From the NCBI GenBank assembly GCA_002786855.1, contig PCUU01000046.1:1-64000 (forward strand): a stretch of 64,000 nucleotides of DNA, written 5' to 3'. Positions 10,854 through 60,492 of this stretch are shown here, in pieces. A program made the position numbers and the translations under genes. Position 1 is the first letter of the stretch. Every line of letters begins with the position of its first letter. The notes below the pieces were generated by a model. The model did not search any database, had not been told where the DNA came from, and saw nothing but the letters and a program-made list of their open reading frames with translations. Source of the stretch: Cytophagales bacterium CG12_big_fil_rev_8_21_14_0_65_40_12 (GTDB lineage Bacteria; Bacteroidota; Bacteroidia; Cytophagales; Cyclobacteriaceae).

Positions 10854-10883
10854 TTAACCTTTGAAAGACATTCGGAAACTTGC
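10839..10883. repeat. right direct repeat, the kinase 3' end
   Basis: Matches 8855-8899 (42 of 45, with a perfect 34-bp core at 10850-10883). This copy is the functional one, holding the last codons and TAA stop of the sensor kinase gene. The segment between the two copies carries the propeller and peptide genes. Confidence 0.85.
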
Positions 10884-12209
10884 TCCTTTGTCCTTTTCGG
10901 ATTTGACGGTTAAGTCACCTCTGTGCTTTTTCATGATTTGTTTTGAAAGGCTCAGGCCAATTCCAGAACCATTTTCTTTGGTTGAAAAAAAGGGAATAAA
11001 AATTTGATCGATTTTACTCTCGTCAATGCCCGTTCCGTTGTCAGTAATTTCAATTACTTTTTCTGATTCGCGCGAATAGGCACTTATGGTGATCAATGGT
11101 TTTTCGGTGGTTTTTAGGGCATGTTTGGCATTGGTGATTAGATTGATGAGCACTTGCTCAATTAACTTCCTGTCAATGAACAGCTTGAATGAATTTTTGA
11201 GCCGAAGTTCTAGCGTGATTTGCTCTTTTTGAAGCTCTGGCGTCATGAGTTGTGCCATGTTTTCCAATAATTCTGTGGCCTCAACTTGCTCTTGGTCAAG
11301 ATTTTTGACTCGGGTCAGTTTTCTATAGTCTTCTACAAAATGAAGTAAACCTTCGCTTCTGCGCTGTATGGTTTCTAACGAAAAACGGAAGTCATCTAGG
11401 TCTTCTTCCGATAATTCTTGGGCCTTCTTTTCTTTGGTTTCATCCTGTTGCAGCATCATTCGCATGGTTTCTGTAAGCGAGGTAATCGGAGTTACCGAAT
11501 TCATGATTTCATGCGTCAGAATCCTTATCAACTTATGCCAAGCTTCAATTTCCTTTTGTTCGATTTCAGATTTAATGTTCTGGAATGTGATGATGGAATA
11601 CCGATAGTTTAATATTTTCAGGCGAGTAACATGTGCCGAAATTTGAAGCTTTTCTTCCTTGATATTCAATTCGATCAACTTGCGTTCATTGTCCTCCATT
11701 TCAGAGAACTCTCTGGCAAAATCAGGACTGAATTGCACGAACTGTTTCCAATAGTTAGGGGCTGGAATGCTCAAAAGCTGCTGGGCACTTTTGTTCATTA
11801 ATTCAATTTGGTGCTCTTCTTTAATAGCGATAATCCCAACATTGATATTGTCGACAATTACTTTAAGGAATTTGAATTGGGCTTCTTTCTCAACGGATAC
11901 CTTTTTGAAGGCTTCAATAATTTCAACAAAAGCATTCTGCAATTCTTGAAATGACTTGCCGTGTTTTTTGCCTTTAAATGAGATGGAAAAATCGGAATAG
12001 CGAATGGCCAGCAATAGTTTAGCAAGCTCTCGGTTGGTAAACGTAATAAATCGAATCAGTTCCGCGATCTGAATTACGATGATCGAAAGGAGGATAATTT
12101 GGTTGAAGAATAACTCGGTTTTCGCAAAAATAAAGGCCAAAGCAGTCATGCTCAGCATCAGCAAAGTGACGCGTAGAATGACTAGCAAGGCGAATCTTTT
12201 TGAAACCAT
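10854..12209 (-). CDS. membrane sensor histidine kinase, NtrB-like
   Basis: A 451-aa kinase with two N-terminal membrane segments (about residues 9-29 and 37-56) and almost no periplasmic loop. A HAMP-like/linker region and a PAS-like domain follow (about 110-215). The phospho-acceptor is His233 in THEIMNSVTP. Then come the N-box NLITNAKHAL, the G1 box DNGTGID, and the G2 box GSGIGLSLSKQ. This is the NtrB/ZraS-like class that pairs with sigma54 activators. It lies 69 bases downstream of the NtrC-like regulator on the same strand, so it is very probably its cognate kinase. The signal is unknown. Its 3' end is duplicated at 8855-8899. Confidence 0.92.
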   Translation of the reverse strand: MVSKRFALLVILRVTLLMLSMTALAFIFAKTELFFNQIILLSIIVIQIAELIRFITFTNRELAKLLLAIRYSDFSISFKGKKHGKSFQELQNAFVEIIEAFKKVSVEKEAQFKFLKVIVDNINVGIIAIKEEHQIELMNKSAQQLLSIPAPNYWKQFVQFSPDFAREFSEMEDNERKLIELNIKEEKLQISAHVTRLKILNYRYSIITFQNIKSEIEQKEIEAWHKLIRILTHEIMNSVTPITSLTETMRMMLQQDETKEKKAQELSEEDLDDFRFSLETIQRRSEGLLHFVEDYRKLTRVKNLDQEQVEATELLENMAQLMTPELQKEQITLELRLKNSFKLFIDRKLIEQVLINLITNAKHALKTTEKPLITISAYSRESEKVIEITDNGTGIDESKIDQIFIPFFSTKENGSGIGLSLSKQIMKKHRGDLTVKSEKDKGASFRMSFKG

Positions 12210-12221
12210 TATTTTCTGGTA

Positions 12222-12284
12222 CTTAGTATTGAGTCTTTAGTATTGAGACCTCCAACTTCGGTCTTCGGTCTTCGGACTTCACAA
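12222..12284. repeat. degenerate 7-bp tandem repeat between regulator and kinase genes
   Basis: Nine heptamers in register: cttagta, ttgagtc, tttagta, ttgagac, ctccaac, ttcggtc, ttcggtc, ttcggac, ttcacaa. The last unit contains the stop codon of the NtrC-like gene. The CTTCGGT family recurs at 57229, 58591 and 60123. Confidence 0.6.
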
Positions 12285-13652
12285 CCCATATTTCTGCAAT
12301 CTTCTATAAAGCGCTAATCTGTCTAAACCTAAGTCCTTAGCCGCGCGCGTTACGTTGCCGTTGTGCTTGTCTAGCGCTTTTAGAATTAGCCTTTTTTCCA
12401 TTTCCGATAAATCAAGAATATCTTCCTCCAATCGTTTTGATGCCCTGTTAGGTTGAAGCACAAAGTCATCCGCTGTCAACTTATTGCCATCGGCAAGAAT
12501 GATGGCGCGTTCGATGGCATGCTGCAACTCACGAATATTCCCAGGCCAGTGATATTTTTTAAGTTTAGCAACGGTGTTCTGGTCAATGCTGATTTTCGGC
12601 TTTTGGTATTTCTTGCCATACATTTGGATAAAGTGATTGACGAGAATATCCATGTCCTCAATACGCTCTGCCAATGCCGGCATTCTTAATTCAACAGTGT
12701 TGATTCTGTAGAGTAGATCTTGTCTGAAAGTGCCTTCTTTCACCATTTCATAAAGCGGCATGTTAGTCGCACAGATTAGCCTAATGTCTAAGGGAATTTC
12801 TTTACCAGAACCCACTCTGCTTACTTTGCGTTGCTGCAATACGGTAAGGAGTTTTCCTTGCAATGGGAGGGAAAGGTTACCGATTTCATCCAGAAAAATG
12901 GTACCGCCTTTGGCCAGCTCAAACCGCCCTGGCTTATCTTCCTTAGCATCGGTAAAAGCACCACGTACGTGACCAAACAGTTCACTCTCGAAAAGTGATT
13001 CACTGATGGAGCCTAAATCTACATTGATAAAAACCTGATTTTTCCGAAGCGATTGCCTGTGCAAAGCCCTGGCCGCTAACTCCTTGCCTGTTCCATTTTC
13101 ACCTAAAATCAAAACATTCGCATCAGTTGGGCCTACTTTTTCAATTAGTGAAAACACTTTTTGGATAGGAAGCGATTCACCAATGAAGTTCTCAAATTTT
13201 TGATCTAGATCGCCAGAGAGTGTTTTTTGAGTGCTTTTCAATCTGTCAACCTCTAATTTGCTTTGGCGAAGTTGCAAGGCTGATTGAATGGTGCCAAACA
13301 GCTTTTCGTTTTTCCATGGTTTGGGCAAGAAGTCCGTAGCACCGGTCTTAACGGCTTTTACCGCCAAATCAAATTCACCATATGCCGTGATCAGAATAAC
13401 AATGCAGTTCGGGTCGATAGTAAGAATATTACTCAACCATTTAAGTCCTTCTTCACCTTCGTTATCACCCTTTTTGAAATTCATGTCCAAAAGCACAACA
13501 TCAAATGATTCCCTTTCAAAATGAATAGGAATCTGTTCCGGATTATTCTCAATTTGGACTAAGGTAAATTGTTGTTTCAAATACATGCGTGCTGTGTTGA
13601 GCACGTCCATGTCATCATCAACTACCAGAATTTTAGCTTCAATCTTGCTCAT
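12279..13652 (-). CDS. sigma54-dependent response regulator, NtrC-like
   Basis: A transcription activator of 457 aa from the ATG at 13652 (MSKIEAKILVVDDD). A longer frame to 13697 would run through the upstream direct repeats and is rejected. Domains: receiver (1-125) with Asp12-14 and phospho-acceptor Asp56; AAA+ domain with Walker A GENGTGKE, the sigma54-contact loop GAFTDA, and Walker B GTIFLDEIG; then a Fis-type helix-turn-helix at the C-terminus (NVTRAAKDLGLDRLALYRRLQ). Its kinase follows on the same strand. Two direct repeats (13661-13702) begin 8 bases upstream of its start and precede a sigma54-like promoter facing the other way, so it likely controls the divergent permease and perhaps itself. 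Confidence 0.95.
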   Translation of the reverse strand: MSKIEAKILVVDDDMDVLNTARMYLKQQFTLVQIENNPEQIPIHFERESFDVVLLDMNFKKGDNEGEEGLKWLSNILTIDPNCIVILITAYGEFDLAVKAVKTGATDFLPKPWKNEKLFGTIQSALQLRQSKLEVDRLKSTQKTLSGDLDQKFENFIGESLPIQKVFSLIEKVGPTDANVLILGENGTGKELAARALHRQSLRKNQVFINVDLGSISESLFESELFGHVRGAFTDAKEDKPGRFELAKGGTIFLDEIGNLSLPLQGKLLTVLQQRKVSRVGSGKEIPLDIRLICATNMPLYEMVKEGTFRQDLLYRINTVELRMPALAERIEDMDILVNHFIQMYGKKYQKPKISIDQNTVAKLKKYHWPGNIRELQHAIERAIILADGNKLTADDFVLQPNRASKRLEEDILDLSEMEKRLILKALDKHNGNVTRAAKDLGLDRLALYRRLQKYGL

Positions 13653-13660
13653 GTGAAAAC

Positions 13661-13702
13661 TGTATCGAAAACAAACACTTAAATGTATCGAAAACAAACG
13701 AT
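13661..13702 (+). promoter_or_regulatory. twin activator-site candidates upstream of the 13809 permease
   Basis: Two direct repeats: TGTATCGAAAACAAACACTT at 13661-13680 and TGTATCGAAAACAAACGAT at 13684-13702, with starts 23 bp apart. Each contains a TGT-N7-ACA dyad. A near-identical pair with the same 23-bp phase lies at 19020-19061. In both places the first repeat starts exactly 103 bp before the sigma54-like -24 element. These are probable enhancer sites for the NtrC-like regulator whose start lies 8 bases away on the other strand. Confidence 0.75.
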
Positions 13703-13763
13703 AATAAACTAATTTTCTAATCGAATTAATTGTAAGTAATAGATTTACAGTTGTTTATAAAGT

Positions 13764-13779
13764 TGGCAAGCTATTGGCA
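13764..13779 (+). promoter_or_regulatory. sigma54-type -24/-12 promoter for the 13809 permease
   Basis: TGGCAAGCTATTGGCA matches the sigma54 consensus TGGCACGNNNNTTGCA, with GG at -24 and GC at -12 in correct spacing. It ends 30 bases before the permease ATG. The upstream twin repeats and the neighbouring NtrC-like gene support the assignment. Confidence 0.75.
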
Positions 13780-13808
13780 ATACGGCTCAAGTTCTTACTG
13801 AAAAAAAT

Positions 13809-16235
13809 ATGTTCAAAAACTATATTATCACCGCCTTCAGAAACATCATTAGAAACAAGTCATACGCTATGATCAATGTTTTTGGTTTGGCCTTAGGGAT
13901 TAGCGCAGCATTGGTGCTTTTTAAGATCGTACTTTTCGAGAAGAGTTTTGATACCTATTTAACCAATTATGATCGACTCTATAGATTCACTAAAACTGTA
14001 GAAAGTCCTAATCTTATTGAAAAGGAAGGGGGGATTCAAAATCCTTTTACAGCCGCGTTTAAGACTGATTACCCTGATTTGGGCATACCTGTTCGAACAT
14101 TTTATATAGGAGAGAGTCAGTTGAGTGTACAAAATACCATTGGTGATTGGACACATTACGAACAGAAGAAGGGGATCGCTTTTGTAGACCCTGAATTCTT
14201 TAAGTTGTTTGACTATGAGTGGTTCATAGGTAATCCCGAAACGGCAGTGACTAAACCGAAGTCGGCAGTAATATCAGAATCCATAGCTGCCAAGTATTTT
14301 GGAATCACGGATGGAGGCTATGACAGGGCTCTGGGCAAAGAGTTAAAACTTAATGGTAAACTCGATGTGTTTGTAACAGGAGTTGTTTCCGATCCTCCTA
14401 AAAATGCCTCATTGCCATTTCAGGTAATGATCGAGTACGAAGCAATAGAAGCCATTTTCGATTTTTATCAACCCAATTCTTGGACTTCCACTTCCTCAAA
14501 TTCAAATGTCTTTTTTTTGTTGAACGAAAATGTAAGCGAGCAGCAAGTCTTGGATATTTTGCCCAAAATGGTTGAAAAGTATATTCCAGATGGAGAGAAT
14601 AAAACTGCTTTCGAGTTGCAGTCTTTGGCAGATATGCATTTTCAACCTGAATACAATACCTACGATGACTTGGCCAAATCAAAGGATTTTTTGACCGTGC
14701 CGATAGCCATTGGAATCTTTTTGATTTTAACGGCTTGTATTAATTTCATCAATTTATCTACTGCCTTGGCGATTAAGCGATCAAAAGAAGTAGGGATTCG
14801 CAAGGTTTTGGGAGGTGTAAAAGGCCAATTGATTTTTCAATTTTTGGGCGAAACATTCTTGATTACCTCGATTGCAGTATTGATTTCGCTAGGAGTAGCA
14901 GAATTGATCATGACGAACATGGAAAGTCTGGTGGGGTACAACCTTTCACTTGACTTGTTGAATGACGTCAGTTTACTTTTTATCGCAGTAGGAGTACTAC
15001 TCTCGGTCACTCTGCTTGCAGGGATGTATCCTTCACTTATTCTTTCTAGGCTAAAGCCAGTGGCTGTTTTGCATGGGAAAGGGCAGTCATCACTTTCTGG
15101 GAATATCAACACCCGCAGAGGTCTCGTGATTTTTCAATTCTTTATTTCCCAAGTGTTGGTCATTTGTACTTTGGTAGTAATTTCTCAAATGGAGTACTTC
15201 CAATCGCAAGAATTAGGATTCAGAAAATCATCCATCATTACATTTCCATTACCTACCAATGAAGCTGAAAAACTCAACGTCATTAAAAATGATTTGAAAA
15301 ATTATGCTGGTGTAGAAGTGGTGAGTTTTTCATTCGCCAGCCCACTTTCAGATAACAATATTGGATCTACCTTTAAATATGCACCTCTCGAAGCAGAAGG
15401 CAATTTCGAAGCTGCCTTTAAGATTATAGATGAAAACTATTTAGAACTCTATGGAATAGAATTACTGGCGGGACAAAATATTAGTGTGTCGGACACTACG
15501 CTCAAGGAAGCGCTGATTTCATTGCAAGTCATGAAATTAATGGGACTCACTGATCCAGAAGACGCGATTGGAAAAACGCTCGGCACAGGCTTTAATGGTG
15601 ATAAACGCATAGTTGGAGTGTTTAATGATTTCCATAATAAGAACTTAAAAGAGAAAATGGATCCGCTGATTATGGTCAAATATGCGGGTTATAACTACGA
15701 AGGAGCTTTAAGATTTGAAGGTGCTGAAAATGAAATGTCCGCATTGATTGCCGCCCTTGAAAAAACATGGACTGCCCAATATCCTGGCGTTCTTTTCGAT
15801 TATTCTTTGCTATCCGAAAAAATCTTGGAGAACTATAAAAAGGAGGCAGATATGCTCAAGTTGTTTCAGATTTTCTCTGGTGTTGCCATCTTCATTGGTT
15901 GCCTTGGATTGTACGGTTTGGTCTCTTTTATGGCCAATCAAAAAATGAAGGAAATTGGAATCAGGAAAGTGCTAGGTGCTACTGTCAATCAAATACTTGC
16001 CATTTTCTCTAAGGAACTGTTAATACTGATCTGTATCGCTTTCTTACTGGCAGCGCCACTTGGCTACTTTTTTATGCAAAAATGGCTCGATGGCTTTGAA
16101 TATCGAGTGAATTTAGGAATAACTGCGTTTGCCGCAGCTGCCGTTTTTACGCTGGTGATTGGCGCTGTTACAACTGGCTTAAGGTCATTGAAAGCTGCTA
16201 CTTCAAATCCTGTAGATTCATTGAGGAGCGAATAG
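13809..16235 (+). CDS. large FtsX-type ABC transporter permease (MacB-like), copy 1
   Basis: An 808-aa inner-membrane protein made of two fused FtsX/MacB-like units. Each has one membrane helix, a large periplasmic core and three helices: TM near 21-43, periplasmic region to about 280, TMs at about 285-405, TM at 430-450, a second periplasmic domain to about 675, and TMs at about 682-790. The cytoplasmic coupling motif appears in both halves (KEVGIRKVLGGVKGQ and KEIGIRKVLGATVNQ). Such permeases work with a LolD/MacB-type ATPase, which is not encoded nearby. Substrates of this Bacteroidota group are unknown; efflux or envelope stress roles are inferred. A sigma54-like promoter precedes it. Confidence 0.88.
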   Translation: MFKNYIITAFRNIIRNKSYAMINVFGLALGISAALVLFKIVLFEKSFDTYLTNYDRLYRFTKTVESPNLIEKEGGIQNPFTAAFKTDYPDLGIPVRTFYIGESQLSVQNTIGDWTHYEQKKGIAFVDPEFFKLFDYEWFIGNPETAVTKPKSAVISESIAAKYFGITDGGYDRALGKELKLNGKLDVFVTGVVSDPPKNASLPFQVMIEYEAIEAIFDFYQPNSWTSTSSNSNVFFLLNENVSEQQVLDILPKMVEKYIPDGENKTAFELQSLADMHFQPEYNTYDDLAKSKDFLTVPIAIGIFLILTACINFINLSTALAIKRSKEVGIRKVLGGVKGQLIFQFLGETFLITSIAVLISLGVAELIMTNMESLVGYNLSLDLLNDVSLLFIAVGVLLSVTLLAGMYPSLILSRLKPVAVLHGKGQSSLSGNINTRRGLVIFQFFISQVLVICTLVVISQMEYFQSQELGFRKSSIITFPLPTNEAEKLNVIKNDLKNYAGVEVVSFSFASPLSDNNIGSTFKYAPLEAEGNFEAAFKIIDENYLELYGIELLAGQNISVSDTTLKEALISLQVMKLMGLTDPEDAIGKTLGTGFNGDKRIVGVFNDFHNKNLKEKMDPLIMVKYAGYNYEGALRFEGAENEMSALIAALEKTWTAQYPGVLFDYSLLSEKILENYKKEADMLKLFQIFSGVAIFIGCLGLYGLVSFMANQKMKEIGIRKVLGATVNQILAIFSKELLILICIAFLLAAPLGYFFMQKWLDGFEYRVNLGITAFAAAAVFTLVIGAVTTGLRSLKAATSNPVDSLRSE

Positions 16236-16347
16236 GGATAGGGAAGACCGAAGATGGAAGTCGGAAGACCGATGACCGAAGAAAGAGTTGATTAGAAAAC
16301 AACCCGAAACATCGGGGAGGGAATTCCTTCCTTGTGAGAAAGTTCGA
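16234..16347. repeat. 7-bp repeat followed by the CCCGA hairpin block
   Basis: Heptamers agggata, gggaaga, ccgaaga, tggaagt, cggaaga, ccgatga, ccgaaga (16234-16282) follow the permease stop. Then comes a block homologous to 2799-2852: GATTAGAAAACA, a hairpin CCCGA (16303-16307) / TCGGG (16312-16316), and a GGAATTCCTTCC dyad. The same heptad-plus-hairpin order at two unrelated loci suggests a compound repeat element. Confidence 0.55.
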
Positions 16348-16365
16348 CTAATCAATTTTGAATAC

Positions 16366-17517
16366 CTACTTAGCTTGTTTTACTAATTGCTTTTGGAATG
16401 AAGATTCTGCAGTTACCTCACTCTTAGATAAGGCGCAATAAACTCTTCTAATTAAGTTAGGAAGGATCCCCACTGCAAGAAACGATATCCCTAACGTCAC
16501 CAAGATTGGGATGCCCGTAAACAAAGTTCCGGCAGAGAGAATGCCGAGAATCAATAGGGTTGAAAAAGGTAATGAACAGGCCAAGATAAGTATGGCAAAC
16601 TCGGTGTCAAATGTGCGTTTTTGAGCTTTAATGCCATCTGAATCTTCTTTCAAATTGAAGGCCGACATATGCGCAAATGGCCAGAAGCTAACCGCACTCA
16701 AAGGAAAGACCACTGCAAGCATAATGGCCCCCGGAACCGATAAACCAAGGGCCAAAATTATGATTGCACTAATTAAAATCGAGATGCCAGCGCGGCAACA
16801 TAAGATTGAAATGACTGTCCCCAAACCTTTCTTACTCAGCTTCACAGCCAATCCAATAAATATCAAAACCAATGGAGTCATTATTGCGCTAAGTCGAACA
16901 AAGGTTTCGGATAAAAAGGTTGGAAGAGTCGTTAGATTCAGGCCTAAACTCAGTAGTCCAATCGCCAAAAGGATAATGATGTTGATTGGTTCTTTGATCA
17001 ATGAAATCAATAAGCTTTTGAGTTTAGACTTAGAATTTGAGTTGTCGTTGGCGTTGTTGGCATAATACCAGTTCATGGCCATTACGTACAAGAAAATAAG
17101 GACGAAAAACTTGTTGCCTACATCTGCCAAGGCTGCATTGGCCAATTGATCTTCTCCTATATATTCTAGAATAAAAGGAAAACATGAAAGCCCAGGTGCC
17201 AATGAGGGCAAGAGCATCATAAGCGTTCTACCTTTCGGGGATTGCCGCTCAATACTGAAAAGTTTGAGAATACTAGGGGTCAGGAAGTAGAGTAAGAAGT
17301 TGAAAACCAAGGCCAGCAAAGGCATAAATAACAGGCTTGCGTTGATTTTCACCCCCATGAGCGCTACAAAAATGGTAGCAGGCAAGGCTACATTTAGGAT
17401 GATATTCTTTATTCCATTGACCTGCTCATTGCCTTTGAATTTCTTCTTCAGCAAAAAACCGATGGCAATAAGAAGGAGTAAAGTCAACGTTTTGGCCAAG
17501 GCCGAATCTGTGCTCAT
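16366..17517 (-). CDS. AEC-family (auxin efflux carrier type) transporter
   Basis: A polytopic inner-membrane protein of about 383 aa from the ATG at 17517 (MSTDSALAKTLTLLLLIAIGFLLKKK); a start at 17538 would add seven residues. About ten hydrophobic segments are visible, with the LLIAIGFLLKK opening and ILNVALPATIF helix typical of bacterial AEC (bile/arsenite/riboflavin superfamily) permeases. Family members move organic acids or amino acid-like anions; the substrate here is unknown. It starts 29 bases after the stop of an exported aminotransferase gene, so the two are probably one operon and may share a substrate. Confidence 0.82.
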   Translation of the reverse strand: MSTDSALAKTLTLLLLIAIGFLLKKKFKGNEQVNGIKNIILNVALPATIFVALMGVKINASLLFMPLLALVFNFLLYFLTPSILKLFSIERQSPKGRTLMMLLPSLAPGLSCFPFILEYIGEDQLANAALADVGNKFFVLIFLYVMAMNWYYANNANDNSNSKSKLKSLLISLIKEPINIIILLAIGLLSLGLNLTTLPTFLSETFVRLSAIMTPLVLIFIGLAVKLSKKGLGTVISILCCRAGISILISAIIILALGLSVPGAIMLAVVFPLSAVSFWPFAHMSAFNLKEDSDGIKAQKRTFDTEFAILILACSLPFSTLLILGILSAGTLFTGIPILVTLGISFLAVGILPNLIRRVYCALSKSEVTAESSFQKQLVKQAK

Positions 17518-17545
17518 AGATCTGAATAAAATAACCAATCAATTT

Positions 17546-18733
17546 TTAACCTACCACCTTGCCTAAGGCGTCAAGAAAGAGTTTCATTTCCTTCATCGTA
17601 CCCATACTCACTCGACACCATGGTCTATCGTAAATGTCAAATGACCTTACGGCAATACCTTGGGCTGTCATTTTATCTAGGAAAGGTTTGCCTGATATTT
17701 CTTTCAGGGGGAAAATCATAAAACTGGTGTGAGATGGCACTGGCTCAAAACCCATGGCTTTCAATTTTTCGAAAGTGTAAGTTCTGGCCTCTTTGTTCAG
17801 CTCTTTTGATTTGGTTTGAAAAGCCACGTCATCCATGCTTGCATTGGCCGCTGCGATGGTAGTGTTTGAAATCCCCATTCCACCTCGGGTAATGCTATTG
17901 ATGGCTTTTAGAGTTTCTGGCAAGGCTGCGATATAACCAATTCTTAAGCCCGCCATTCCGTGGATTTTAGAGTAAGTACGCGCAATGATTACGTTTTTGC
18001 CTTGCTGAAGCAATTTCACCATGCTTTGTCCGTCAGCGCCTTCTACAAAATCTAAATAGGCTTCATCAATAAAAATGGGCACTTTATCCGCTACTCTAGA
18101 GCAAAAGTCATAAAGTTCATTGTAAGTAGTAATCGTTCCCGTTGGATTGTTCGGGTTACAGATGTAAATAAGTTTTGTATCGCTATCAATTGCGGCTTCC
18201 ATGGCTTTTAAATCATGCGACCAATCGTCTTTCAAAGGAATGCCTTTCCATTTTCCGCCCACGGATTGCACTACATTCATCAACGACATATAAGAAGGAT
18301 CTGCTGAGAGCACGGTGCCACCATTCATAAACATGACCATAGCGGTTTTTTCGAGTAAGTCCGAAGAACCAGGCCCCATCATGATATGGGTTTTGTCGAC
18401 TCCTTCTTTGACACAAATTTTATCAACTAAAGAAGTGAGTGTGCCCCAACCATAACGGTTACCTTCTGTGGCTACGCTTTTCAGTGCTTTGATGCCTTCG
18501 GGCGATGGACCATATGGGTTTTCGTTAGCATTGAGCTTAGCAACAATTTCAGGAGCTTTAACGGTTGAAATGTATTCTTTGAATAAAGGGGTATGAATGA
18601 TCCTTCCTTCTCGATCAATATTAATTGGAGAATTTAAATTTGCTGCCCAGCTTAAATGCGGAAGCATTGACACTCCGCCTATGGTCATTAGGCCTGTTTT
18701 TAACCACTTTCTTCGATTTAATTGCTGCGACAT
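17546..18733 (-). CDS. HisC-like PLP aminotransferase with a Tat signal
   Basis: A class I/II fold aminotransferase of 395 aa similar to histidinol-phosphate aminotransferases. The core has KLNANENPYGPSPEG, GPGSSDLLEK, CNPNNPTGT (PLP site), DEAYLDFV, and the PLP lysine in RTYSKIHGMAGLRIGY. Unusually, it begins with NRRKWLKTGLMTIGG followed by hydrophobic residues and an AxA-like site (LSWA), a twin-arginine export signal. The enzyme would thus fold with PLP in the cytoplasm and act in the periplasm. It is followed by an AEC transporter gene. A role in histidine synthesis is unlikely; the substrate is unknown. Confidence 0.85.
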   Translation of the reverse strand: MSQQLNRRKWLKTGLMTIGGVSMLPHLSWAANLNSPINIDREGRIIHTPLFKEYISTVKAPEIVAKLNANENPYGPSPEGIKALKSVATEGNRYGWGTLTSLVDKICVKEGVDKTHIMMGPGSSDLLEKTAMVMFMNGGTVLSADPSYMSLMNVVQSVGGKWKGIPLKDDWSHDLKAMEAAIDSDTKLIYICNPNNPTGTITTYNELYDFCSRVADKVPIFIDEAYLDFVEGADGQSMVKLLQQGKNVIIARTYSKIHGMAGLRIGYIAALPETLKAINSITRGGMGISNTTIAAANASMDDVAFQTKSKELNKEARTYTFEKLKAMGFEPVPSHTSFMIFPLKEISGKPFLDKMTAQGIAVRSFDIYDRPWCRVSMGTMKEMKLFLDALGKVVG

Positions 18734-19019
18734 AATGTTTGGTTGATTTAGTTAAGTCAGAATTTTTATTGTTTCCTTGGAATTTGAACTCTAAGTTATT
18801 TGGTAATCGACCCAATTTAAAGAATTATGTATGATTATATTTAACTGGTTAAAATATATCTATGGAATCGAATGAAATGCGTATATGTGGGAAAAATAGG
18901 TTTGTAAAACATCCTTTTTTTAGAAAAAATATGTAGAAAATATTGAAATAGGGTAAATAATGATTTTATGACTTGGTAGGTCGGTACTCGGCTTTGTCTA
19001 CAAACAGAATCAAATTAAC
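18734..19019. other. AT-rich spacer, no gene seen
   Basis: Spacer between the divergent aminotransferase and permease genes, left of the activator-site candidates. It is AT-rich with no convincing reading frame, hairpin or tandem repeat. It must hold the aminotransferase promoter, but I see no clear -33/-7 pair. Confidence 0.4.
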
Positions 19020-19061
19020 TGTATCAAAAACAAACACTTGGCTGTATTAAAAACAAACGAT
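19020..19061 (+). promoter_or_regulatory. twin activator-site candidates upstream of the 19177 permease
   Basis: Direct repeats TGTATCAAAAACAAACACTT (19020-19039) and TGTATTAAAAACAAACGAT (19043-19061), starts 23 bp apart. They differ from the pair at 13661-13702 by a few C/T or G/A changes only, while the surrounding DNA is unrelated. Each holds TGT-N7-ACA. The distance to the sigma54-like element is the same as at the other locus (103 bp from first repeat to -24). Confidence 0.75.
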
Positions 19062-19122
19062 ATTTTAAAGGGTTGAACTTTAATAAAGGCTTAACTAATT
19101 GATTGATAGGTATTAATATTCT

Positions 19123-19138
19123 TGGCATAACCATTGAA
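19123..19138 (+). promoter_or_regulatory. sigma54-like -24/-12 element for the 19177-21588 operon
   Basis: TGGCATAACCATTGAA has the -24 TGGCA and TTG at -12 in right spacing, but A replaces the usual C of the -12 GC. On sequence alone it would be weak. Its exact positional match to the promoter at 13764 relative to the twin repeats is the main support. It ends 39 bases before the ATG. Confidence 0.55.
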
Positions 19139-19176
19139 TAAGCAGAGCCAAAGACATCACTCAAAATATCTTTTCC

Positions 19177-21576
19177 ATGGTCAAAAATTACATTCGAATT
19201 CTGCTAAGAAACTTCGCCAGAAACAAAGCATTTACTCTCATCAACATTAGTGGACTCACTTTAGGCATCACCTGTAGTCTGGTCATGTTCCTGATTGTAA
19301 AGCAGGAGAGAAGTTTTAATCGCTACCATTCAAATCTAAACTCCATTTACAGAGTAGGGCGTATCGATGTTCAAGATGGTAGAGAGTATTCTGGTGGAGG
19401 TATTCCGCTTATTATGCCAGGCGTGCTGAAATCAGATATAGTCGGTTTAAAAGAGGTGACTTTAGTTTCTCATGAGCGTTATGGGCTGATTTCTATCACC
19501 GATGGTAGTGAAATTAAATACTATGAGGAAGACCCGGAGTTGGTTTACATTGAGCCGAATTTCTTTGATGTATTTGATTGGAAAGTGTTGGAAGGAACTG
19601 TTCAATCTGGCTTTGATCAACCTAATGTGGTAGCACTTAACCATACCTTGGCGAAGAAGTACTTCCCGTACAGTTCGGCTATAGGACAGACAATTAAGTT
19701 GAATAAGAAAATAGACTTGAAAGTTATCGCTGTTTTGGAAGATGCACCAAAGAACTCGGATTTCCCCTTTGGTATTTTTATTTCGATGGAAACTAAAAAA
19801 GGCCCAGAACCTTGGAAAAATAGTGAATGGGGAAGTATTGCTAGCGATAATGTCGCTTTTGTGTTGTTGGATAATAATGTTACCCCAGAGAGTGTCGAAA
19901 GCCAATTTCCAGATTTTGTAGAGAAGTATTGGGATGCTGAAACGCGTGAATCAAGGACTTTCGTTCTCGAACCCTTCCGCGAGTATCATTTTAGCGAGCA
20001 ATTTGGGACTTTTAGTCAACGTTCCGCACCAAAGGCAATCCTCTATGCCTATGTGATTATTGGGATTTTATTGATTGTTACGGCTTGCTTCAATTTCATC
20101 AATATGTCTACGGCCATGGCGGTCAAACGTGCCAAAGAAGTAGGTATGAGAAAAGTATTGGGCAGTTCGCGCAAGCAATTGATCGCTCGTTTTATGGGTG
20201 AAACCTTCGCCATTACCTTGATCTCGCTTTTAATTTCTATTGCACTGACAGAAAGGCTTCTACCGCTAGTTATCAACGATTTTGTGGGTATCGAAATCCC
20301 ATTTAGCCCGCTCACGGACTTTTCATTATTGGCCTATTTGCTTCTCATTTTAGTCTCAGTTTCATTTTTGGCGGGTCTTTATCCTGCCGCTGTGCTTTCG
20401 TCAGCCAAACCCATTGATGCTTTGAAGGGCGGTATGACCAAAGGAAAAGGCAACATGTTTTTTAGAAGGTCTTTAGTTTTTACCCAGTTTCTGATTTGCC
20501 AAGTTTTGATTTTTGGAACTGTGGTTGCGGTGAGGCAAATGAATTATTTCAACTCGGTTGATATGGGTTACGATCAGGAATGGATCATCAATATCAATCT
20601 AGCAGAAAGAGATGAGAAGACCAGAGATTTATGGGAAGCTAAAATTCAAAATTTACCTGGGGTTGTGGCGCATTCATTCAACTATAAACCTCCGTTCTCT
20701 GGTTCTCAATCAGTGACAAATGCGTTTTACACGCCTTCAGATAGTATTCAAACGGAATTGGATATGCATGTAAAAATGGCTGACCATGAATACCAAAAAA
20801 CATATGGACTTCGATTGATTGCTGGCGATTGGTTGATGAAAAGTGATACGGTGAATCAGTTTGTTGTCAATGAGACATTTCTTAAAAAAGTAGGAGTGAA
20901 GGATCCTTACGATGTCATCGGAAAACCTTTGAGATTATGGGGAATGACAGCCCCAATTGTAGGGGTAATCAAGGATTATCATGTCACCACACTTTCGGAA
21001 GCCATTGAACCTGTAGCAATGTTCAATGAATCTCGTGACTTCAGAACTCTAGGTGTTAGGGTGAATGCACAAAGTGCTACCAAAGTGGTGGCTGAACTTA
21101 AAACGATTTGGGGCGAAATTCATGAAGAGTATGAATTCGATTATCAATTTTTAGACAAAGAGATTTATGAATACTATGATAATGAGCGAAAAATGTCGCA
21201 AATGCTTACGGTGTTTGCCTTCATTGCCATTTTTATTGGTTGCTTAGGCTTGTATGGTTTGGTCTCATTTATGGCCAACCAAAAGGCTAAAGAAATTGGA
21301 ATTAGAAAAGTATTGGGCGCCACAGTGGCCAGCATAATGGGCCGTTTTTCCGTGGAGTTTGTTGTTCTTGTGGGCGTATCCTTTCTGTTGTCTGCGCCAT
21401 TGGCCTATTGGGGAATGAACAGTTGGCTGGGGCAATATGAATACAGAATTTCGATTGGGCCGATGATCTTTATCATCAGTATTGGTGCGTCTTTAATGAT
21501 CGCATTGCTTACAACAGGTTATCGTTCGCTTAGAGCGGCCACCGCCAATCCTGTTAATTCACTTAGAGACGAATAA
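19177..21576 (+). CDS. large FtsX-type ABC transporter permease, copy 2
   Basis: A 799-aa paralogue of the 13809 product with the same fused double-FtsX layout: N-terminal helix (FTLINISGLTLGITCSLVMF), a large periplasmic core, three helices, then the unit again. Coupling motifs KEVGMRKVLGSSRKQ and KEIGIRKVLGATVAS are present, and the C-terminal end ANPVNSLRDE is typical. The C-terminal FtsX part (IGCLGLYGLVSFMANQ) is nearly identical to copy 1, the periplasmic parts much less so. It is the first gene of a two-permease operon with copy 3, which starts 11 bases after it. No ATPase is encoded nearby. It shares the twin-repeat/sigma54 architecture with copy 1. Confidence 0.88.
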   Translation: MVKNYIRILLRNFARNKAFTLINISGLTLGITCSLVMFLIVKQERSFNRYHSNLNSIYRVGRIDVQDGREYSGGGIPLIMPGVLKSDIVGLKEVTLVSHERYGLISITDGSEIKYYEEDPELVYIEPNFFDVFDWKVLEGTVQSGFDQPNVVALNHTLAKKYFPYSSAIGQTIKLNKKIDLKVIAVLEDAPKNSDFPFGIFISMETKKGPEPWKNSEWGSIASDNVAFVLLDNNVTPESVESQFPDFVEKYWDAETRESRTFVLEPFREYHFSEQFGTFSQRSAPKAILYAYVIIGILLIVTACFNFINMSTAMAVKRAKEVGMRKVLGSSRKQLIARFMGETFAITLISLLISIALTERLLPLVINDFVGIEIPFSPLTDFSLLAYLLLILVSVSFLAGLYPAAVLSSAKPIDALKGGMTKGKGNMFFRRSLVFTQFLICQVLIFGTVVAVRQMNYFNSVDMGYDQEWIININLAERDEKTRDLWEAKIQNLPGVVAHSFNYKPPFSGSQSVTNAFYTPSDSIQTELDMHVKMADHEYQKTYGLRLIAGDWLMKSDTVNQFVVNETFLKKVGVKDPYDVIGKPLRLWGMTAPIVGVIKDYHVTTLSEAIEPVAMFNESRDFRTLGVRVNAQSATKVVAELKTIWGEIHEEYEFDYQFLDKEIYEYYDNERKMSQMLTVFAFIAIFIGCLGLYGLVSFMANQKAKEIGIRKVLGATVASIMGRFSVEFVVLVGVSFLLSAPLAYWGMNSWLGQYEYRISIGPMIFIISIGASLMIALLTTGYRSLRAATANPVNSLRDE

Positions 21577-21587
21577 ACCTTAAAGCA

Positions 21588-23963
21588 ATGTTCAAAAACA
21601 ACCTTAAACTTATTGTTAGAAAACTAAGGAAAGAGAAGCTCTATTCTTTTGTGAATATTGCTGGGCTCACCGTAGGGCTTACCGCATTTTTGTTGATTGC
21701 GCTTTATGTGAGGGATGAACTAAGTTATGACAAGTTTTATGCTGACCATGAGCAATTATATAGGGTTTACGCCACTGACACTACACGAGGTGTAAAGCAA
21801 GGATCAATTGCCCCTGATTTGGCCGCTATTATTGTTTCAGATATCCCCTCTGTTGAGTCAGCAGTACGCATGGTTGGGGCAGGAGCTAAGAGCCTTTTGA
21901 CGGTTGATCACAAACGTATTTATTCTGACAAGATTATTTTTTCGGATGCCAACTTTTTCGAGATGCTGGATTTTGAACTGGTGGAGGGTCTTGCTCAATC
22001 AGTGCTGAACAAACCTTATCAAGCTGTAATTACTACCGCTTTTGCAGAAAAACTATTTGGTGAAGAAAACCCAATCGGAAGAACTATTAGCCTAAATAAA
22101 GAAAGAGATTTAGTGGTAACCGGAATCAGTGAAACACCACCAAATAATAGTTCGCTTCGGTTCGATGTGGTGATTCGGAGTGGTTTAGCCGAGATGGATA
22201 CTCAAATCCAAGGAAGTATGCGATCTGCGCTTACCTATCTTAAAATTTCAGAAGAGCAAGATAGGGCTCAGGTAGTGAAAATGATCAATGAAATCAGACC
22301 GAAATCTGCTTATGGTTTATTTCTTAAGAATACGGAGTTTGGATTGTTGCCTTTAACCGACCAAAGGCTTCATGCCAATTTCACTTATGCATATTTAACA
22401 GACCAAAGTGACATTCGATTTGTGTATTTATTTTCCGGTATTGGTTTTGTGATTCTGCTTTTGGCGGTGATCAATTACATCAATATGGTAACAGCCAGTT
22501 CGCTGAAAAGGGCGAAGGAAATTGGGCTTAGAAAAGTAATTGGTGCTCAAAAATCTCAATTGGTTTGGTATCAATTGGCAGAATCTGTTGTGGTGACTAC
22601 AATTGCTCTGTTTATGGCTTTTGCGATAACAGAAAGACTGTTACCAAGCATGAATAATTTTTTAGGGAAGGCCATAGAATTGAAATACTTAGGCTTAGAG
22701 TTTTTGCTCTTTGTGCCTTTGATGGGGCTAACTATTGGTCTTTTAACCGGACTTTACCCTTCTTTTTATATTAGTAGATATAAACCATTAGTATTACTGA
22801 AAAACAATATGAGTGGAACCTCTGGAAAAGGTGGGCTAAGAAGAGCCTTGGTTGGTTTTCAGTTTTTGGCAGCAGGGGTTATGATTTTGGTTACACTCAT
22901 TATGCATTCTCAAATGAAGTTTTTGAAAGAGCAGAAGATGGGTTTTGATCAAGAGCTACTGGCGTACGTTCCGCTTTTTGAAGACTTGAAAGGTAAGTCT
23001 CATGTGTTTAAGAACGAGGTGCTTGGTATGTCGGGTGTTTCATCGGCCACCGTAACCAATTGGATGTTTGGAATGCATACTTGGAGTGGCGTTTTTGCTG
23101 GTTACTATGATAGCGATACCGATGAAAGACCACCTTTTGTTGAAGTGTCTTTTGTTCTAGGAGATGAAGATGTGGTCAATACTTTAGGGCTGAAAATATT
23201 GGAGTCAGAAGAGGGTTTTGAAATGAATCAACTTGATTCTACAAAAATCGTGATCAGTAGGCTTGTGGCCGATGGTTTAGGCTGGAAAGATGAAAGTGCG
23301 ATCGGAAAGTACGTATATCAGTATGCGGGTTCTAAAATGAAAGTGGTGGCGGTAATTGAAGATTTTCACTCTTCTTCGTTGAAGGATGAAATTCTACCTT
23401 CTGTGATCTTTAATAGGGAAAGTTGGTCAGATGAAAAATTATTGGTGCGCTTTGAAAACAAAGGACATCAGGCCACACTCAAAGAGATCAAAACGAAATA
23501 TGAAAGCCTTTTAAACCGACCTTTTGAATTTAGTTATGTAGATGACGAAATAGAAAAATACTATAAAGATGAAGCCGATCAAGTGGCATTGTTCAATGCC
23601 TTTTCTGCTTTGGCTATTTTTATTTCCTTATTAGGTTTAATGGCCATGGCAACCTATGCTGCCGAGCAAAGGAAAAAGGAAGTAAGCATAAGGAAAGTTT
23701 TGGGCGCTTCTATGAAGCAACTCATTCTCTTGCTGAATAAGGAGAATGGGGTTTTGGTGATTATCGCCTTTTTAATTGCTACACCTTTTACAGTTTATGT
23801 GATGCAAGACTGGCTATCGGAGTTCAAATATACCGTTACAATTCATCCAGCATTGTTTATTTTGACCTTAGCCGGATTTTTTGCTTTAAACTTGTTGGTT
23901 ACTTTGCTCTTTTCGATGAGGGTATCTAGGGCAAACCCTGCTGATGTTCTGCGAGATGAGTAA
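21588..23963 (+). CDS. large FtsX-type ABC transporter permease, copy 3
   Basis: A 791-aa relative of copies 1 and 2 with the same double-FtsX architecture but more diverged: it starts MFKNNLKLIVRKLRKEK, has LSYDKFYADHEQLYRVY after the first helix, coupling motifs KEIGLRKVIGAQKSQ and KEVSIRKVLGASMKQ, and ends NPADVLRDE. The second FtsX part reads LMAMATYAAEQRKKE instead of the LYGLVSFMANQ of its neighbours, so it belongs to another subgroup. With the 19177 product it may form a heterodimeric permease. It has no promoter of its own in the 11-base gap. Confidence 0.86.
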   Translation: MFKNNLKLIVRKLRKEKLYSFVNIAGLTVGLTAFLLIALYVRDELSYDKFYADHEQLYRVYATDTTRGVKQGSIAPDLAAIIVSDIPSVESAVRMVGAGAKSLLTVDHKRIYSDKIIFSDANFFEMLDFELVEGLAQSVLNKPYQAVITTAFAEKLFGEENPIGRTISLNKERDLVVTGISETPPNNSSLRFDVVIRSGLAEMDTQIQGSMRSALTYLKISEEQDRAQVVKMINEIRPKSAYGLFLKNTEFGLLPLTDQRLHANFTYAYLTDQSDIRFVYLFSGIGFVILLLAVINYINMVTASSLKRAKEIGLRKVIGAQKSQLVWYQLAESVVVTTIALFMAFAITERLLPSMNNFLGKAIELKYLGLEFLLFVPLMGLTIGLLTGLYPSFYISRYKPLVLLKNNMSGTSGKGGLRRALVGFQFLAAGVMILVTLIMHSQMKFLKEQKMGFDQELLAYVPLFEDLKGKSHVFKNEVLGMSGVSSATVTNWMFGMHTWSGVFAGYYDSDTDERPPFVEVSFVLGDEDVVNTLGLKILESEEGFEMNQLDSTKIVISRLVADGLGWKDESAIGKYVYQYAGSKMKVVAVIEDFHSSSLKDEILPSVIFNRESWSDEKLLVRFENKGHQATLKEIKTKYESLLNRPFEFSYVDDEIEKYYKDEADQVALFNAFSALAIFISLLGLMAMATYAAEQRKKEVSIRKVLGASMKQLILLLNKENGVLVIIAFLIATPFTVYVMQDWLSEFKYTVTIHPALFILTLAGFFALNLLVTLLFSMRVSRANPADVLRDE

Positions 23964-57151: not shown

Positions 57152-57514
57152 CTTCGGACTTCCAGCTCTTAGGCCCTTCGTTCCTCAGGGAAAGAAGGCT
57201 TTTTATCGTTGCCTTTGTGGTAAATGGACAGCTTCCGACTTCGGTCTTCCGACTTCGGACTTCCGACTTCGGTCTTCCCTCTTCCGTCTTCAAATATTTT
57301 TCCCTAACTTCTTAGCCACTAATTATTGAATTTTTAAAAGTAATTTCTCACCCTTACCATAACCTATTACAATGAATCAAACGCGCAGAAACTTCATCAA
57401 GTCATCCTCCCTAGTCGCGCTAGGGATGGGGGCATTCCCTCCTTTTTTATTAGCTACTCAAATGGCATCTCAGAATGATATTGTTAATATGGCTGTGATC
57501 GGTTGTAATGGCAT
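57152..57514. repeat. copy A of a ~360-bp direct repeat
   Basis: This segment is a diverged copy of 58514-58872: promoter-side sequence, a heptad repeat array, and the first 47-48 codons of a Gfo/Idh/MocA gene. Over the 143 coding bases I count 15 differences (about 90% identity), mostly at third codon positions. The KilA-N gene lies between the two copies. Confidence 0.9.
57229..57291. repeat. CTTCNGN heptad array, 9 units
   Basis: Nine heptamers in register: cagcttc, cgacttc, ggtcttc, cgacttc, ggacttc, cgacttc, ggtcttc, cctcttc, cgtcttc. The equivalent array in copy B (58591-58660) has ten units in a different order, so units have been gained, lost or changed. Confidence 0.8.
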
Positions 57515-60064: not shown

Positions 60065-60492
60065 GGAGAAGGTTTTTACCCACAAGGCAAAATGGCTATA
60101 CTCAGTACAGCCCTCGTACCCTGTGCTTCGTGCTTGGTGCTTGGTGCTTGGTGCTCCGTGCTTCGGTCTTCGGTCTTCCGTCTTCTTCCTTCCCTAAAAA
60201 GCCCATCAAATCACTAGGATATTAAGGTTTCAAAAATTACATTCAAATAAAATAAAAACATCTGCTTTAATTACTAAAAAAATCTGCGGCTATAGGCGAT
60301 ATAAACGCAATAGGCACAGTAAGTTGAGTTTATTCAGATGTTTGGGCACATGCTAAAAACCGACCGCACAAATGGCACATTTTGTTCTTTGCGATTAAAC
60401 GAGCCAATGCTGAAAAAGCAAAGCAGCCATTTTTTAACCAACGCATGGACATAATTATGTACTTTGGTAAATTATATTTCGAGAATTAGAGC
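60065..60492. other. spacer with heptad array, no gene
   Basis: The left part has a heptad array at 60123-60185 (gtgcttc, three times gtgcttg/gtgcttc-like, gtgctcc, gtgcttc, two ggtcttc, cgtcttc). The right part (about 60230-60492) is AT-rich with no convincing frame or hairpin and leads to hsdR. It may mark the left border of the restriction island. Confidence 0.55.

Follow-up and report, generated by a model that had tools for sequence, protein, structure and literature searches.

An NtrC-type regulator with twin operator sites predicted at sigma54-type promoters of ADOP-like permeases in Roseivirga

NtrC-type activators, among them those of the NtrC/NtrB, ZraSR and AtoSC systems, are built from a receiver, an AAA+ domain and a Fis-type helix-turn-helix (HTH), and NtrC itself recognises the site TGC-N11-GCA. 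Permeases of the FtsX fold occur together with cognate ATPases in the BceRS-BceAB and MacAB modules, of which Bce is accompanied by a two-component pair with an OmpR-type regulator. The ADOP permeases (TIGR03434) are, to our knowledge, large families of orphan permeases without known function or ATPase partner, and we know of no dedicated regulator for them. The locus described here lies in a stretch of 64,000 nucleotides (positions 1 to 64,000 of contig PCUU01000046.1, hereafter the window) of Cytophagales bacterium CG12_big_fil_rev_8_21_14_0_65_40_12, whose genome (4,058,831 bases in 99 contigs, 99% complete) belongs to the marine genus Roseivirga. It comprises an NtrC-type response regulator, a sensor histidine kinase, three ADOP-like permeases and two twin sites ahead of permease genes. 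From sequence comparison we consider it likely that the regulator, probably answering to the adjoining kinase, controls sigma54-type promoters of one ADOP-like permease module. A survey of predicted sigma54 targets reports the permease component COG0577 as enriched, with Bacteroidia among the classes concerned (PMC12316311); in the part of that survey available to us, these permeases are not linked to any particular regulator, operator or gene run. Among the titles listed from the open-access literature searched, none concerns this regulator-permease system.

The 16-base repeat TGTATYRAAAACAAAC is found in the window in four mismatch-free copies, at 13661 and 13684 (site 1) and at 19020 and 19043 (site 2), and the repeat-to-repeat phase of 23 bp at both loci bears out what a first-pass annotation of this DNA had described. 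When up to three mismatches are allowed, the repeat has eight matches in the window against a chance expectation of 5.2, the four outside the sites all having three mismatches. The annotation had also placed a -24/-12 element 103 bp from the first repeat. The TGG of the -24 half does begin at exactly this distance in both sites, at 13764 and 19123, and since the window contains 74 copies of TTGGCA over its two strands (about 5e-4 per base on a single strand), a return to one particular base would be unlikely by chance. The -12 half falls short of its earlier description: the promoter letters read TTGGCA-AGCTA-TTGGCA in site 1, with the -12 half one base closer than in most congeners, and TTGGCA-TAACCA-TTGAA in site 2. 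The two sites are identical at 37/44 positions of the repeat block and at 27/58 between the repeats and -24; the figures are 9/17 for the -24/-12 stretch, 14/60 upstream and 4/26 downstream, and the description of the DNA around the shared elements as otherwise unrelated is a fair one. Random occurrence of the pair in the genome had been named as speaking against a regulatory role; with up to three mismatches the pair pattern is found genome-wide in two places, site 1 and site 2, and nowhere in the reversed control.

All elements of the two sites lie on the plus strand. In site 1 the first predicted operator dyad (TGTAT-N7-AAACA) occupies 13661..13677, 8 bp from the ATG of the regulator gene, and the second predicted dyad follows 23 bp after it at 13684..13700. 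An A/T-rich block of conserved alignment columns (13733..13761), whose A/T maxima recur with weak periodicity across 81 distinct promoters, precedes the sigma54-type -24/-12 element of the first permease (13763..13779), for which the inferred start is about 13790. Site 2, delimited by the repeat scan and a 26-site alignment, has its predicted dyads at 19020..19036 and, again 23 bp on, at 19043..19059, its A/T-rich block of conserved columns at 19092..19120 and the sigma54-type element of the second transcript at 19122..19138, with an inferred start near 19149.

The regulator (457 aa, 12279..13652, minus strand) possesses a receiver (PF00072), a Sigma54_activat domain of the AAA+ type (PF00158, E 5.3e-64) with a GAFTDA loop, and a Fis-type HTH (PF02954), and thus has the domains of the NtrC family, as the first-pass annotation had supposed. 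The sensor histidine kinase (451 aa, 10854..12209) is located downstream of it on the same strand. The permeases PERM1 (808 aa, 13809..16235), PERM2 (799 aa, 19177..21576) and PERM3 (791 aa, 21588..23963, beginning 11 bp past PERM2) are encoded on the plus strand, and each of the three contains MacB_PCD and two FtsX stretches, in keeping with the MacB/FtsX-type targets that had been named. PERM1 and PERM2 are 38% identical. The solved structures nearest to PERM2 by sequence are MacB and a related permease, which match its C-terminal quarter only. The nearest NCBIfam family is ADOP, matched by PERM1, PERM2 and PERM3 over the whole length (E 2.5e-79, 7.1e-80 and 1.3e-59) with 267, 269 and 202 bits, below the curated cut-off of 622.3 bits. 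The duplicated core without an adjoining ATPase of the ATP-binding cassette (ABC) type is shared with ADOP, with two FtsX stretches in each protein and the ATPase judged by motif only. No open reading frame (ORF) combining a Walker A motif with an ABC signature was found by motif search, the only search made for it, in the 22 regions read. In the whole genome 45 ABC_tran matches compare with 67 MacB_PCD matches and with 32 PERM2-like matches (E <=1e-60); domain matches are not gene counts.

Compared with NtrC-type systems, the locus has the same domains in its regulator, dyads of 17-18 bp likewise lying about 100-120 bp before the inferred start, and TGG at -24. It differs from them in the GAFTDA loop, in a -12 that is mostly TTGG or TTGA, in a near-constant distance from operator to promoter, and in its targets, which are runs of permeases without ATPase. 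Unlike ADOP as described, it has a Bacteroidota host and a dedicated regulator, and unlike the BceRS-BceAB and MacAB modules it has a sigma54-type activator and no ATPase detected by motif search in the regions read.

The pair pattern was searched in 195 relatives, 18 of them congeners, and was found in 15 of these 18. In eight congeners a single contig carries two sites on the same strand, separated by 7-22 kb, G011 has its sites on two contigs, and six have a single site; one stray 3-mismatch match each occurs besides in G004 and G007. An orthologous regulator (77-91% identical) is present in 16 of the 18 congeners, and a site adjoins it in all 16, including G018, whose variant site was missed by the pattern. 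The regulator is missing from G008 and G017, both incomplete genomes, where the pattern gave no site and a profile partial or weak matches only. rpoN is found in all 19 genomes of the genus, once in the genome of the window. A kinase homologue stands near the regulator in 13 of the 16 regulator-bearing congeners, in two of them with one extra ORF intervening, and in G006 the contig ends where the kinase would be expected. A separate observation is that the kinase's place in G007 (L040 2-2130) and G009 (L042 1-2048) is occupied by a transporter of the major-facilitator type and a gene for an ECF-type sigma factor (Sigma70_r2, Sigma70_r4_2, DUF6596).

In total, 26 sites (16 site 1s and 10 site 2s) from the window's genome and the 15 congeners were aligned, 25 without gaps over about 127 bp and one with a single-base insertion. 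TGG at -24 is invariant in all 26, as befits a sigma54 promoter, and so is T.G at -12, which had not been imposed in the search. The repeat blocks are invariant or nearly so, and offsets 45-65 are not conserved. In these same 16 genomes operator 1 lies 5-8 bp from the regulator start codon, the variant site of G018 being similarly close, and TAAA is present in the spacer of 16/16 site 1s versus 0/10 site 2s. The nearness of the dyads to the regulator start and the confinement of TAAA to site 1 fit self-regulation.

In congeners site 1 heads a one-strand run of permeases of 800 residues, most gaps being shorter than 30 bp. There are 17 permeases on one contig in G007, 9 before and 8 after site 2, 15 in G005, and 18 reading frames in G009, two of which overlap and which perhaps represent 17 genes. 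Shorter runs contain 7 or 8 permeases in G001, G002, G010 and G013, 7 in G012, 6 in G016 and G018, and 5 in G003, and the run of G011 is split over two contigs with 9 and 11 frames. In nine congeners site 2 is found inside the run ahead of the PERM2 orthologue, in a gap of about 125-205 bp. The sites had been taken to lie upstream of permease transcripts, which holds for the window; in these nine congeners site 2 would be an internal promoter of a longer run. A terminator-like hairpin directly follows the second operator copy in 7/10 site 2s and 0/16 site 1s, with a stem of the CGATTTC...GAAATCG kind followed by 5-7 T (z -4.2 to -9.1, simple shuffles). Its stems vary compensatorily between species, for example CGATTCT/GGAATCG and CGTTTCT/GGAAACG. 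Because the hairpin accompanies site 2 in seven of ten cases, the front transcript is probably ended, and the rear one restarted, at site 2. The site 2s without hairpin are those of G003, G010 and the window, the last of which also lacks a preceding permease; here two unrelated genes on the minus strand, for an auxin-efflux-type carrier and an aminotransferase (16366..18733), separate both permease transcripts. Tandem repeats of CCTGATTAC occur at the contig ends before the PERM2 orthologue in G004 and G006 (L157 1-73, L158 1-49), and these repeats perhaps broke the assembly there.

The 26 sites were made into a sequence-only profile, with which 118 genomes were searched, and the counts that follow are among the matches listed. 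The strong matches in Roseivirga (E <1e-15) are the known sites, one or two per genome and two in the window's own, where no third full site was found and the next match is partial (E ~0.001). The expectation of more regulon members in this genome was therefore borne out by neither pattern nor profile. Control of a permease regulon by the regulator may still be upheld in part, as the site tracks the regulator in the genus and in six further genera and rpoN is present; a larger regulon finds no support. In these six genera full-length matches stand beside regulator homologues: G033 (E 2.1e-11), G029 (1.8e-8), G034 (3.0e-7), G027 (8.6e-7), G054 (4.8e-6) and G134 (1.7e-4). All six keep the 23-bp phase, and the distance to TGG is 103 or 104 bp except in G054, whose 92 bp are shorter by roughly one helical turn. 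The arms of copy 2 are perfect over 7 bases in G033, G054 and G134, for example TGTATCGTAAACGATACA. Because of these perfect arms and the phase kept in six genera, the putative operator is best read as two NtrC-sized dyads rather than as the plain direct repeats first proposed, whose paired layout is retained. A 13-bp dyad, TGTTTTnAAAACA, had been considered as the operator and was dropped after dyads of 16-18 bp appeared in other genera. Matches in G046 (E 1.2e-11) and G060 (1.5e-6) adjoin regulators of this type that are more distantly related (54% and 49% identical), and second matches in G029 (C54) and G134 (C307) lie ahead of permeases with no regulator match in view. The pair pattern also gives matches beyond the genus, as does its control; those in G046, G117 and G089 resemble the site by eye.

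The operator letters vary with the recognition helix in a table compared by eye: DRLALYRR and TRTALYRR helices go with TGTATC and TGTAC types, TRASLYRR and TRSSLYRR helices with GTTC-type dyads. Homologues in Bacteroidales and other metagenome-derived genomes (L071, L076, L078, L084, L087, L094) have twin dyads of the TTGTTC..GTACAA or GAACG..CGAAC type with 23-bp phase and 102-103 bp to TGGYA, under a score that favoured TGGYA at 88-110. On contig C36 of the window's genome (3700-4800, L159) several copies of a CCCCCTTATCCAAGGGGGAGGC..GTTACCGATGGTTTTA-like repeat lie in the intergenic stretch that separates a paralogous regulator from its permease run. Other paralogous regulators of Roseivirga (L089, L160, L273, L275-L280) have the same promoter core with other operators, several of the GTGTTCG..TGTACAC type, and the paralogues with their own predicted operators form a set of parallel modules. 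A short dispersed repeat of the GAAGACCGAAG family, found in the window at 12256-12280, 16243-16282, 57239-57278 and 60161-60179, is in part an inverted pair on either side of the regulator-PERM1 unit and looks like the repetitive extragenic palindrome type.

Canonical TTGC at -12 is not the rule in these promoters; the spacing fits in most, and the C is mostly replaced by G, also by A or T. Over 181 loci, the letter after TTG in the 90 intergenic matches is G in 63 and C in 4, an excess biased towards the promoters of one regulator family, around which most of the loci were gathered, and in coding matches it is G in 30, T in 16, A in 12 and C in 11. Over the 81 distinct promoters, for which TGG and TTG were the search pattern, it is G in 54, A in 14, T in 9 and C in 4. 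In family f35 (30 genomes) TTGCW is found 109 times vs 33 in the control and TTGGC 21 vs 23, while in the 37 genomes that share the window's class or stand closer to it TTGGC is found 115 times vs 54 and TTGCW 74 vs 52. TTGG as a phylum-wide rule is thus rejected, and, as f35 shows TTGC and the sampled loci centre on one regulator family, TTGG in these predicted promoters is a lineage or family trait. Residues 378 and 383 of RpoN matter in -12 recognition. A change from E to I at residue 378 was rejected as the cause of TTGG, I or V being present in all 72 Bacteroidota genomes, the TTGC-type f35 included.

Among the activator frames of the gathered loci that matched the search expression, 91 of 92 carry G[AS]FTDA. 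In the available part of one source, GAFTDA is listed as compatible with activity and is found in the Desulfovibrio activator DVU2106, to which targets are assigned (PMC4641369). Upstream of TGG the 81 promoters show A/T maxima near -9, -18, -29 and -40, of low information per column, as would be fitting for DNA curvature or for contact with the alpha subunit of the polymerase. A hairpin RNA before -24 was rejected, as the mean z over 27 sites is -0.66 (simple shuffles), similar to that of neighbouring windows; some individual sites fold well, and the block resembles a loose dyad in the DNA, with A/T maxima in phase, more than it does an RNA element. A strong dyad pair is present in 31 of 61 distinct promoters that lack the Roseivirga operator (mean 9.1 and maximum 14 in 30 shuffles), with the first centre at -92 to -97 in nine, at -80 to -85 in seven and scattered in 15. 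The averaged dyad profile over the 61 is weakly informative, its best centre reaching 0.393 against a null maximum of 0.361.

Control of the permeases through sigma54 has several observations to answer. Neither site of the window has the canonical TTGC at -12, -24/-12 patterns show no excess over the control in this genome (2 vs 3; 1 vs 2), and the regulator has GAFTDA in place of GAFTGA, which a sigma54 survey, in the part available to us, terms invariant and used to filter activators (PMC12316311). The PERM2 orthologue follows the previous permease by 17-30 bp with no site 2 in G012, G015, G016 and G018, and by a gap of 115 bp, again with no site 2, in G014; G004 and G006 count here too, their contigs ending at the position of site 2 so that the site is off the contig. 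Comparable near-full-length profile matches occur, among others, in G129, G053, G028, G022 and, as a second match, G046, so that regulator company is shown for part of the matches rather than for all of them. Finally, G007 and G009 have no kinase match within 6 kb beside the regulator, and these two carry the longest single-contig permease runs. This absence slightly lowers our confidence, and because of it the predicted regulator-permease link is firmer than the regulator-kinase link.

Another DNA-binding protein might act on the repeats and TTGGCA, or the promoter might be the ordinary Bacteroidota one, whose motif is TAnnTTTG, instead of a sigma54 promoter. The non-canonical -12 half would suit either, and in places the -24 half is overlapped, as judged by eye, by a sequence close to TAnnTTTG. 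The TA of that motif is unmarked in the 81 distinct promoters, however (T 33/81, A 34/81); these have TGG and TTG at fixed spacing, though both were the search pattern, and T.G is invariant in the 26 Roseivirga sites with no such imposition. A different binding protein is also hard to reconcile with a site beside the regulator in 16/16 congeners and six further genera, and we regard this explanation as unlikely. It is quite unlikely that the sites mainly serve the regulator's own gene, with permease control secondary. The closeness of operator 1 to the regulator start speaks for such a role, and the TAAA of site 1 points to an extra function there, but no regulator gene adjoins site 2, and the -24/-12 elements of both sites point at permeases.

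That site 2 might be a functionless relic of a duplication of site 1 is suggested by the likeness of the repeat blocks and by the related permeases that both promoters drive. With PERM1 and PERM2 so far apart in sequence, and spacer and flanks diverged, ten genomes have nevertheless retained the blocks with phase and distance unchanged, and the site 2s of congeners occupy gaps of their own among permease genes mostly less than 30 bp apart; a mere relic is very unlikely. Under the preferred reading, control by the NtrC-type regulator, a signal would act, probably through the kinase, to yield phosphorylated regulator, which would bind the two dyads of 17-18 bp, 23 bp apart and with their centres about 121 and 98 bp upstream of the start. 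From there it would reach over some 60 bp of A/T-rich DNA to act on sigma54 polymerase poised at TTGGCA..TTGG, and transcription from about 13790 and 19149 would yield, in this genome, three permeases in two separate transcripts. The same twin site heads the permease run and, in this genome and nine congeners, recurs ahead of PERM2 or its orthologue, and with the dyads of site 1 beside the start codon, self-regulation of the regulator appears likely. Export, or protection of the envelope under stress, may be guessed as the role of the permeases from their kinship to MacB.

Judged by its sequence features, the twin-site system is a variant of sigma54 control tied to an orphan permease type, and it is new as such. 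A wider and more tentative proposal, which we hold to be possible and still doubtful, is that Cytophagia-type Bacteroidota have a variant sigma54 system in which the G[AS]FTDA loop, TTGG at -12 and an almost rigid enhancer arrangement changed together, the last with paired dyads spaced by 20-23 bp, set at either of two fixed distances and linked to the promoter by phased A/T tracts. Such a system would govern growing arrays of orphan permeases that contain internal terminator-enhancer-promoter relays. The near-fixed geometry, TTGG and GAFTDA suggest that sigma54 searches based on canonical motifs can miss the promoters and activators of this group. The apparent fusion of operator, terminator and promoter at site 2 offers a case of a very long gene run that is re-driven midway. 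For the permeases themselves, a dedicated regulator and operator would provide a handle, as an inducing signal would allow the runs to be induced, deleted and assayed.

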